Origin: Boseongicola sp.
GTDB lineage: Bacteria > Pseudomonadota > Alphaproteobacteria > Rhodobacterales > Rhodobacteraceae
NCBI GenBank assembly: GCA_028824715.1
Contig: JAPPCV010000073.1
Span: 1-38,901, forward strand
DNA: 38,901 bases
Reading direction: 5' to 3'
Position 1 is the first letter of the stretch; each line of letters opens with the position of its first letter. The notes beneath the pieces are model-generated. The model saw only the letters and a program-made list of their open reading frames with translations, was not told the DNA's origin and did no database searches. Positions 26,790-35,279 of this stretch are shown in pieces. The position numbers were made by a program, and so were the translations under genes.

Positions 26790-27530
26790 ATGCGGTTGAA
26801 GGGGAAGGCTGCCATCGTGACCGGAGGCGCATCCGGATTCGGCGCCGGCATTGCCGGAAAGTTCGTCGCGGAAGGCGCACGAGTGATGATCGCGGACGTG
26901 AACGGCAAGGCCGCCGAGGCGAAGGCGCATGAGCTTGGCTGCGAGGCCGTCAAGACCGACGTGTCAATTGACAGCGACGTTGCCGCGATGGTGATCTCGG
27001 CGAGATCGGCCTTTGGGAAGATCGACATCCTTGTCAACAATGCGGGAGTGACTCACCTCCCCGCGCCGCTGGACGAGGTCAGCGAAGCGGATTTCGACCG
27101 CGTGTTCGCCGTCAACTGCAAGTCGGTCTACCTGGCGGCCCGGCACGCGGTGCCCGCATTCAGGAAGCAGGGTTCCGGCGCAATCCTCAAAGTGGCGTCG
27201 ACAGCCGGCGTCAGCCCGAGACCCCTGCTCAACTGGCACAATGCGTCAAATGGCTGGATGAACACGGCAACCAGGACCATGGCGGTCGAACTCGCTCCCG
27301 TCGGCATTCGTGTGAACGCGCTGAATCCCGTGGCAGGCGAAACACCGATCCTGAAGAGCTTTCTCGGCGAGGACACGCCGGAAACGCGGGCCAGGTTCCT
27401 CGCAACGATTCCCTTGGGCAGGTTTTCGACGCCTGAGGACATTGGCAACGCGGCCTGCTACCTCTGCTCCGACGAGGCCGCCATGGTGACAGGGGTCTGT
27501 CTCGAGGTTGACGGCGGGCGCTGTATTTGA
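26790..27530 (+). CDS. short-chain dehydrogenase/reductase with altered catalytic residues
   Basis: This 246-aa SDR starts 9 bases after the aldehyde dehydrogenase. The Rossmann core is normal: TGGASGFGAGIA, ADVNG, NNAG, the catalytic Ser137 in VASTAG and NPVAGETPIL. At the catalytic Tyr-x-x-x-Lys, however, the sequence is His150-N-A-S-Asn154 (TGG CAC AAT GCG TCA AAT), where relatives have W-Y-N-A-S-K-G-W. Loss of both Tyr and Lys should abolish normal dehydrogenase activity, so it may be inactive or have another role. A truncated second copy at 34787-35279 has the same two changes. Confidence 0.9.
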   Translation: MRLKGKAAIVTGGASGFGAGIAGKFVAEGARVMIADVNGKAAEAKAHELGCEAVKTDVSIDSDVAAMVISARSAFGKIDILVNNAGVTHLPAPLDEVSEADFDRVFAVNCKSVYLAARHAVPAFRKQGSGAILKVASTAGVSPRPLLNWHNASNGWMNTATRTMAVELAPVGIRVNALNPVAGETPILKSFLGEDTPETRARFLATIPLGRFSTPEDIGNAACYLCSDEAAMVTGVCLEVDGGRCI

Positions 27531-27925
27531 GCGGGCCTGGCGGGGTCGATCTCCAGCAGGTCAAGGGCCCGGTGCTGCAGCTCCGTCGGCTGCGCGAACA
27601 CCGGAATGCCGTGGTCGGGTCCGGCCGGAACCGTCGCCTCGTTCAGCGTCAGCGTGGCCAGGTCGGCGAGAGGCGTCGTGAGGCCGTGGACCGGAAGCCC
27701 GTCGGGGTCCTCTTGTCCGCCGCCTTGGCCTTCGCGCTTTCCGAGACCCTGGCCGGCTCCACCGGCGAGCTCCGTTGCGCCCGTGCGCCCGGACGTGATC
27801 CTCCGACCAGACGTGCACCAGCCGGATCCGCAGCCGCGAGGCCTTCTTCGTGAGGAACGCGCGCTCCACCCGCGCGAGGCTCTTGTACGCCTCCACCGCG
27901 GCCTCCGACCTGGCCCGGCCTCGCG
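27531..27925 (-). pseudogene. C-terminal remnant of an IS1634-like transposase
   Basis: Pieces of a DDE transposase C terminus are readable in three frames. They are [17 protein letters not shown] and [16 protein letters not shown] (the Glu and dimer region), then [20 protein letters not shown] after a deletion of the expected VFLCMLAYYVEWHM part, then a single-base slip into [17 protein letters not shown] and PVFAQPTELQHRALDLLEID. It runs directly into the SDR 3' end. It is dead, and continues the N-terminal piece at 28350-28505, with an IS21 istA fragment in between. Confidence 0.7.
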
Positions 27926-27929
27926 GACT

Positions 27930-28302
27930 GCCGGAAAATCACCTCCCGGTCCGGGCCGTGACGGGCGCGCCAGTCGCGGATCCGTCGCTCCGGCGTGCGC
28001 CGGATGCCCGGATCGAGGTCGGGATGGCGCCGCATCAGTTCCCGGAACACGCCCACCGGCCGGATGTCGTCATTGCTCCGCAGCATCCGCACGATCTCCT
28101 CGTCGAAGATCCCGGCCAGCGGATCGGGCCGCCGACGGCCGCGCAGAGCCTGCTTCTCGGAAGAGGGACGGGGATCCTTCTGGATGCGGTATCCCGTGGC
28201 AGCGCTGAAGCCAGCCTTCGCGGCCGCCGCTTCGGTCGAATGTGTTTTCCTGTTGTTCAGGAAAGTCCTCATCTGGTGATCGGTTACATGCAGGCCCAGC
28301 AC
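27930..28302 (-). pseudogene. N-terminal fragment of IS21-family istA transposase
   Basis: It starts at GTG 28302 after AGGAGA, reading (V)[16 protein letters not shown], followed by the IS21 helix-turn-helix ([23 protein letters not shown]) and [40 protein letters not shown] and [10 protein letters not shown]. The DDE catalytic core that should follow is absent; the sequence passes at about 27930 into a different transposase. No istB is present. Confidence 0.75.
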
Positions 28303-28349
28303 CTCGCTCTCCTCTTCCCGAGAAAGTTTGCGAGGTGATGACCCGGACC

Positions 28350-28505
28350 GCCACGACCACCAAGGGCTCCCGAACGGGGGGCGGCGAAAGTCGTTTCGGC
28401 GGGGGGCATCTTCGAGAGGTTTGCGACGGTTCTCCTGCGAATGCGCTTCTGCTCGCGCCATGCCTCGCGGAGAAGGATGGCGGGCGGCGAGGACCGGTTT
28501 GCCAT
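28350..28505 (-). pseudogene. N-terminal remnant of an IS1634-like transposase
   Basis: The frame from ATG 28505 reads [19 protein letters not shown] and [15 protein letters not shown], which matches my recollection of the N terminus of the transposase whose C terminus lies at 27531-27925. The middle is missing and an IS21 istA fragment lies between the two ends. The flanking 28506-28715 holds no recognisable gene. Confidence 0.6.
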
Positions 28506-28715
28506 GACGTCGCCGCTGAGGGCCACGGCTCGGGTCCTTACATGGCAACAACAAATCCAACGCAAGTCCCTGCGCCCGCGCGGAAAGGCCCAGCCTTTTC
28601 GGGGGCCTGCGCGATGCAGTCGGGAGGTCTTCAACTGAATGGTCCGATTAGCAGAGAGGCGGCACCGGCCATTTGCAAAGCGAACAGAACGACGTTCGTA
28701 TGATCCACTACCGAA

Positions 28716-34322: not shown

Positions 34323-34336
34323 CTCCCACCCTCTCG

Positions 34337-34384
34337 ATGGAAACGTTTCCATGCCTTCTTATCAGCCGCGCCGGAATCTGGCAA
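34337..34384 (-). promoter_or_regulatory. promoter with perfect 16-bp LacI operator
   Basis: ATGGAAACGTTTCCAT (34337-34352) is a perfect palindrome with the central CG typical of LacI-family operators. On the minus strand TTGCCA (34379-34384) and TAAGAA (34356-34361) with a 17-bp spacer could be the -35 and -10, placing the transcription start inside the palindrome. Binding there would block the whole six-gene operon. Confidence 0.65.
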
Positions 34385-34460
34385 GAAAACCTGTCACTGT
34401 TGTGAGTAGTATTGAAAAACAGTGCATTAGATCATCCCAACTTGCAACCAACGGGCCCAG

Positions 34461-34497
34461 CGTGAAACATTGTGAGGTTGCTCAACGTGAAACGTTG
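34461..34497. repeat. direct repeat CGTGAAACRTTG with a palindrome
   Basis: CGTGAAACATTG (34461-34472) recurs 25 bp on as CGTGAAACGTTG (34486-34497); the second copy lies in the palindrome CAACGTGAAACGTTG (34483-34497). It may be an extra regulator site upstream of the LacI gene. The following 34498-34786 holds no recognisable gene. Confidence 0.35.
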
Positions 34498-34786
34498 AAT
34501 TCTGTTCAAGTGATTCGCCGATGAACAGAATCCGTTTCACAGGGCCCCAAAACCGTTCCTGCACCGCTGCTCACGACCTGAAAGAGCGCTTATCTCGCCG
34601 CACTGCCGAGTCAGCTGCTTTTGTAGTCGTGGGCAAGAGTTCCGTAAGTGCACGTGGACAAATTCTGCCATGTCTGGATTGGGTTCTGACTGCCCGTTCG
34701 CCGCATGTTCTTTGAATGTCCGGCATGGCGACTTCGCCCTACGGTAGGCCAAAGTCGCAGAACAGAGCAAACAGACACGATTGTAA

Positions 34787-35279
34787 CATTGCGGGGGTGA
34801 CGCATCTGCCCGCACCGCTGGACGAGGTCAGCGAAGCGGATTTCGACCGCGTGTTCGCCGTCAACTGCAAGTCGGTCTACCTGGCGGCCCGGCACGCGGT
34901 GCCCGCATTCAGGAAGCAGGGTTCCGGCGCAATCCTCAAAGTGGCGTCGACAGCCGGCGTCAGCCCGAGACCCCTGCTCAACTGGCACAATGCGTCAAAT
35001 GGCTGGATGAACACGGCAACCAGGACCATGGCGGTCGAACTCGCTCCCGTCGGCATTCGTGTGAACGCGCTGAATCCCGTGGCAGGCGAAACACCGATCC
35101 TGAAGAGCTTTCTCGGCGAGGACACGCCGGAAACGCGGGCCAGGTTCCTCGCAACGATTCCCTTGGGCAGGTTCTCGACGCCTGAGGACATCGGCAACGC
35201 GGCCTGCCACCTCTGCTCAGACGAAGCCGGCATGGTGACGGGGGTCTGTCTCGAGGTCGACGGCGGGCGCTGCATTTGA
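34787..35279 (+). pseudogene. truncated second copy of the SDR gene
   Basis: From about 34787 the sequence matches the SDR at 27042-27530 codon for codon but lacks the first 80 or so residues (the nucleotide-binding half). It contains the same W-H-N-A-S-N-G-W active-site sequence, and its end differs slightly (ACHLCSDEAGMV instead of ACYLCSDEAAMV). An in-frame ATG at 34716 would give an unrelated N terminus (MSGMATSPYGRP), so a short product is possible but cannot bind NAD. A 359-bp inner block is identical to the first copy. Confidence 0.85.

Follow-up and report, generated by a model that had tools for sequence, protein, structure and literature searches.

How a full-length SDR gene and a shortened copy of it came to share 359 identical bases, together with the same two active-site changes, and yet to differ on both sides of that block is the question raised by this locus. 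The window, meaning the whole stretch of DNA that was analysed, was 38901 bases long. As this is also the length of the contig, the window covers the entire contig, one of the 181 in the draft assembly of G000. The parts of the locus were as follows (coordinates, strand, description, basis).

25203..26780, +, aldehyde dehydrogenase, upstream neighbour of copy A (ORF, Pfam)
26790..27530, +, SDR copy A, full length, 246 aa (ORF, Pfam, NCBIfam)
27066..27424, +, identical block, copy A (base comparison, permutation test)
27425..27537, +, 3' end of copy A, putatively arrived with the insert (3 differences in 106 vs G005)
27538..28655, -, degenerate IS21-type remnant, right end approximate (genus DNA matches, NCBIfam)
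28740..34352, -, insert genes: metallophosphoesterase, ABC ATPase, two permeases, solute-binding protein, LacI regulator (ORFs, profiles)
34785..35279, +, SDR copy B, without codons 1-82 (homology to copy A; open frame from 34716)
34815..35173, +, identical block, copy B (base comparison, permutation test)
35361..36473, -, catechol 2,3-dioxygenase-like gene (native downstream neighbour of the SDR gene in G001-G004)

The repeated block and its surroundings

Positions 27066-27424 and 34815-35173 were compared base by base and were equal at 359 of 359. The left flank (27042-27065, 24 bases) contained five mismatches, at 27047, 27053, 27056, 27059 and 27065, and the right flank (27425-27530, 106 bases) contained nine. 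The block and both counts given in the first-pass annotation were thus exact on recount. A sixth left mismatch at 27040, which changes Asn84 to Ile, lay beyond the limit used in that annotation and close to the edge of homology. Homology between the copies extended from 27036/34785 to slightly beyond the stop codons at 27530/35279. Over these 495 bases 12 of the 15 differences between copies A and B were silent, in keeping with the description of the flank differences as mostly silent.

The SDR pair was the single direct-repeat family in the window (scan with seed 16, minimum length 30). A search of the G000 genome found no third close SDR copy, the next SDR match being 38% identical. Inverted repeats near the copies were short and mostly 80-92% matched; one arm, at 27418-27433, spanned the right end of the block.

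The aldehyde dehydrogenase neighbour was also present in G001, G002, G003, G005 and G007. The dioxygenase-like gene scored 293.7 bits with TIGR03211, under the cut-off of 320.2. The IS21-type remnant scored 47.4 bits with the NCBIfam model transpos_IS21, under the cut-off of 160. Homologous pieces of it occurred elsewhere in the genus, and its end at 27538 recurred as the start of matches at many genus sites (query base 4 onward). Relative to G005, the remnant lacked approximately 86 bases (window 27782-27790), the edges of this gap overlapping by some 8 bases, and approximately 317 bases (28398).

The SDR protein and its active site

Classical SDR proteins carry a TGxxxGxG nucleotide-binding motif, an NNAG motif and a catalytic YxxxK motif. 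Copy A gave a full-length family match (PF13561 adh_short_C2, 2.7e-57; PF00106, 1.5e-42) and scored 319.4 bits with NF005559, a glucose 1-dehydrogenase subfamily model with a cut-off of 215. It contained the nucleotide-binding motif as TGGASGFG and also NNAG. Copy B was without TGxxxGxG, and NIAG replaced NNAG. The YxxxK motif was absent from both copies and was replaced by HNASN. The active-site changes, Tyr150 to His and Lys154 to Asn, were therefore present in both copies and inside the block, as had been reported from the first reading of the sequence.

Conservation was assessed in 88 distinct relatives, obtained from 94 loci (80 of 164 plus 14 more) reduced by identical protein sequence. 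Tyr150 and Lys154 were kept in 88 of 88. Copy A also carried Asn134Lys and Leu187Ile, at two further sites invariant in these relatives, and hence departed from otherwise invariant sites four times, each time inside the block. In a leave-one-out control of the 88 relatives, 75 showed no departure, nine showed one, four showed two and none showed more. The loss of both Tyr and Lys should abolish normal SDR catalysis. No stop codon was found inside copy A. Judged from its sequence, copy A is an SDR by descent but probably not a working enzyme, and profile-based annotation would nevertheless present it as an intact glucose 1-dehydrogenase-type enzyme. As the catalytic changes are identical in both copies, they predate the last copying event.

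Probable recombination between the copies

The permutation test was carried out on an alignment of nine sequences (two each from G000 and G005, and five single genes), in which 106 of 495 sites varied. For the G000 pair, 77 consecutive polymorphic sites of the 106 agreed (27066-27424), a run reached in 0 of 20000 permutations (p 5e-5). With third positions alone the run was 53 of 75 sites (p 5e-5). For the G005 pair, 36 consecutive sites agreed (27356-27530; p 2e-4, and p 0.0006 with third positions alone). Four control pairs gave p 0.06, 0.99, 0.12 and 0.11. Column 27036 of the G005 shortened copy (T), which lies outside both tracts, was given the common base in the permutation test and was treated as N or skipped in the trees.

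Trees were built with 10 of 25 selected loci as outgroups; the upstream tree was made without G004, whose contig was too short. The grouping of each copy with its counterpart in G005, as orthology would require, was rejected by the block trees (AU p 0.0002), and the same result was obtained for 27066-27355, which excludes the part that is identical in G005 too (AU p 5e-57 as printed). The two G005 copies were sisters in the block trees (support 88 and 87). G000 was placed outside G005 plus G004 in the block (support 83 and 79), and also in 26719-27035 (support 74) and 37436-38901 (support 82). The 3' end of copy A grouped with G005 (split support 92), with 3 differences in 106 bases. The 3' end of copy B grouped with G004 (support 82), its nearest sequence, with 6 differences in 106.

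From the permutation runs and the block trees together it follows that the two copies of a genome have sequence in common over a stretch peculiar to that genome. Gene conversion, as proposed in the first-pass annotation, is thus supported by the permutation result, by the rejection of orthology within the block and by the different tract in G005. In the broad sense of homologous recombination between the copies, we consider it very likely.

The locus in related genomes

All eight genomes of the genus, G000 included, were searched. In G001, G002, G003 and G004 one SDR gene was found with the dioxygenase gene adjoining it, which represents the empty site. The phosphoesterase/ABC/LacI block was missing beside the SDR gene in these four genomes. 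A 76% relative of that block was carried elsewhere in G003 (C171). In G006 a close SDR was not found (best match 6.4e-37), and a piece of the dioxygenase gene was located near a contig start. In G007 the SDR gene was present and the dioxygenase DNA was unmatched. Next to the SDR gene of G007 comes a stretch in inverted orientation that is 74% like the IS remnant (L114 10996-13423). The 3' end of the SDR gene may be an insertion hot spot.

G005 has the same layout, but with its identical tract elsewhere (27356-27530). Contig C111 carried its full copy and contig C24 its shortened one, the latter with homology beginning at the same point, and with the same insert, as in G000. Leu225Pro was common to both G005 copies and lay inside the tract specific to G005; at least 97% of the relatives agree at this site. 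The two contigs parted at window 27598-27611, and the 14-base stretch ACACCGGAAAGCCG was present on both sides (L112 9848-9861; L111 up to 17863). Beyond the break, a tyrosine integrase gene was found on C111 and a TrwC-type relaxase gene on C24. Taking C111 and C24 as linked, the G005 locus probably holds a further element, an integrative conjugative element within the IS remnant.

Age and movement of the insert

The insert (28398-34784) was 98% identical to that of G005. At fourfold sites, G000 and G005 differed at 38 of 883 positions in five of the six insert genes, the solute-binding protein gene being left out of the sum (2.5-6.9% per gene), vs 171 of 854 in four surrounding genes (13.6-22.9%). 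The silent-site divergence of the insert was thus approximately 4.7 times lower than that of the genes around it, which points to lateral movement after the G000 and G005 lineages had split. A simple, vertically inherited insert was ruled out by these counts. The copies are thus more than a pair of long-standing resident duplicates, as the DNA lying between them has moved laterally, and the conversion may belong to its integration. Windows of 200 bases in the insert, mostly non-coding (28598-28797, 34398-34797), differed from G005 by 6-7.5%. The interval 35198-35397, which takes in the last part of copy B and the bases after it, was 75.5% identical to G005, far under its surroundings.

Within the block, fourfold sites differed at 12 of 68 from the G005 shortened copy and at 11 of 64 from the G005 full copy. 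This divergence is of core age, so the block is probably the host's own allele and did not arrive recently with the insert. Third positions accounted for 22 of the 30 differences between the block and the G005 shortened copy, a bias which suggests that most of the block's divergence accrued in working genes.

A proposed mechanism through integration

We lean towards a conversion tied to the integration of a laterally moving segment through SDR homology. Such a segment, with SDR sequence at its ends, would travel between lineages and would be brought into a single SDR gene by homologous recombination. In the simplest arrangement, copy A would then be native to approximately 27424 and incoming afterwards, and copy B incoming to approximately 34814 and native afterwards. 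The 359-bp block, native in both, would be a conversion (gap-repair) tract formed at the crossover or soon after. The catalytic substitutions, being inside the tract, would already have been in whichever copy was the template. Integration by homology, of the Campbell type or by ends-in gap repair, results in an insert flanked by direct repeats and in a region where both copies may carry one parental allele. Unlike in that scheme, neither a free circle nor a vector was observed in the present case.

The basis for this native and incoming arrangement is short at both ends. On the left it comprises 30 bases of copy B with four differences from the G005 copy, of which one falls on the edge base; the rate of the insert predicts fewer, which counts against it. 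On the right it comprises 106 bases of copy A, for which a tree joining the two G000 copies passed the AU test (p 0.16), and this also counts against it. The dioxygenase tree placed G000 nearest to G004 with a support of just 57. As the G005 copies are sisters in the block, the G005 shortened copy may itself have been overwritten by the full gene of G005, in which case it would tell little about the incoming allele.

A later conversion between copies already resident would leave nearly the same picture and may have taken place instead. It is also possible that an older insertion was shared by both lineages and was followed by separate conversions and by a later exchange of the insert.

Direction of copying and remaining alternatives

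As conversion during integration leaves the direction of copying open, the probabilities assigned to mechanism and direction overlap. The first-pass annotation had suggested the shortened copy as the donor of the defect. According to this account, Tyr150 and Lys154 were lost as the shortened copy decayed, and 359 bp of its sequence later replaced those of the full gene and so disabled it; this is conceivable, and we hold it only tentatively. Shortened copies are altered at invariant sites (Asn84Ile in G000 and G005, Pro186Ser in G005), as expected of such a donor. That all four departures of copy A lie in the block also speaks for it, but 39 of the 58 invariant sites fall in the block, so this has a chance of approximately 0.2. 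For the same reason, an attempt to obtain the direction from constraint was powerless. Private changes in the block were six non-silent to five silent, compared with 2:8 in the G005 full copy and 3:5 in G004, but a ratio of 4:5 was obtained for the single gene of G003. Outside the block, copy B showed one non-silent and four silent changes, unlike a decaying copy. The core age and third-position bias of the block relative to the G005 shortened copy also argue against this donor.

Two derived bases, at 27135 and 27165 (Thr116Ala, Glu126Lys), were exclusive to G000 and the G005 shortened copy. They were dropped as proof of the donor, as two bases each were shared just as exclusively with G004 and with G003. 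This equal sharing places the donor signal at noise level, and the proposal does not stand on it. Topology tests passed both the block with the shortened copy (AU p 0.27/0.26) and the block with G004 (0.32/0.36), two placements of similar fit. The block with the G005 full copy was rejected by AU (0.009/0.022), in favour of a shortened donor, but by neither KH nor SH.

Equally tentative is the reverse order, in which the active site had already gone from the full gene when its sequence was transferred to the shortened copy (A to B). The position of the block in the trees is that of G000's own lineage, as this order would give. Against it, codons 1-92 of copy A showed no departure at 12 invariant sites, a comparison of low power, and copy A is without an internal stop.

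An assembly artefact, in which a single locus was counted twice or two loci were collapsed over the block, is improbable. The assembly is a draft, and 359 bp exceeds the usual short read. However, the flanks differ on both sides with the block joined to each, and true blocks diverged by 8% could not, we infer, have fused through shared k-mers. Both junctions also recur in the separate G005 assembly, with copies that are not identical, and the bin holds no leftover third close copy. A recent plain duplication, whose flanks came to differ by chance or selection, is highly improbable: 15 differences in 495 bases are few, but the permutation result (p 5e-5) opposes it, and the truncation point is common to G005, whose block sequence is approximately 8-10% away. 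A diversity-generating system would fit poorly with the mostly silent flank differences, and a Pfam scan of ten window proteins found no reverse transcriptase.

Comparison with known systems

Recurrent concerted evolution has been reported in 26 prokaryotic genes in a paper that also discusses tuf (PMC6053082). As in the tuf pair, paralogs within a genome are here more alike than orthologs. Unlike the tuf pair, one partner is a shortened fragment beside an insert, and the shared tract is without the catalytic residues. In Anaplasma msp2 and Borrelia vlsE, other copies contribute segments to an expressed gene (PMC2789410, PMC9159922). Those systems concern surface antigens, many donors and selected variation, unlike the present locus with one metabolic gene, one fragment and a likely loss of function. 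The donors of vls are partial copies. Among the titles and abstract openings examined from the open-licence literature, no description of the present case was found.

The recombination is ordinary in kind and known; its outcome is a seemingly intact enzyme gene without both catalytic residues. Different identical tracts on one layout in two species indicate that the locus records repeated recombination between gene and fragment. A gene that seems whole after an insertion can still be at risk from the leftover fragment, with which it shares approximately 490 bp. The gene and fragment with their shared defect form a neat natural experiment. An enzyme silenced, with neither stop nor frameshift, by a decaying fragment that an insertion left behind would be a bacterial counterpart of human pseudogene-conversion disease, a doubtful but possible reading of this locus.

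The best-scoring solved relatives of the SDR were TsaC (PDB 8sy8), 6b9u and 3n74. In the alignments with 6b9u and 3n74, Tyr and Lys were found where G000 has His and Asn.
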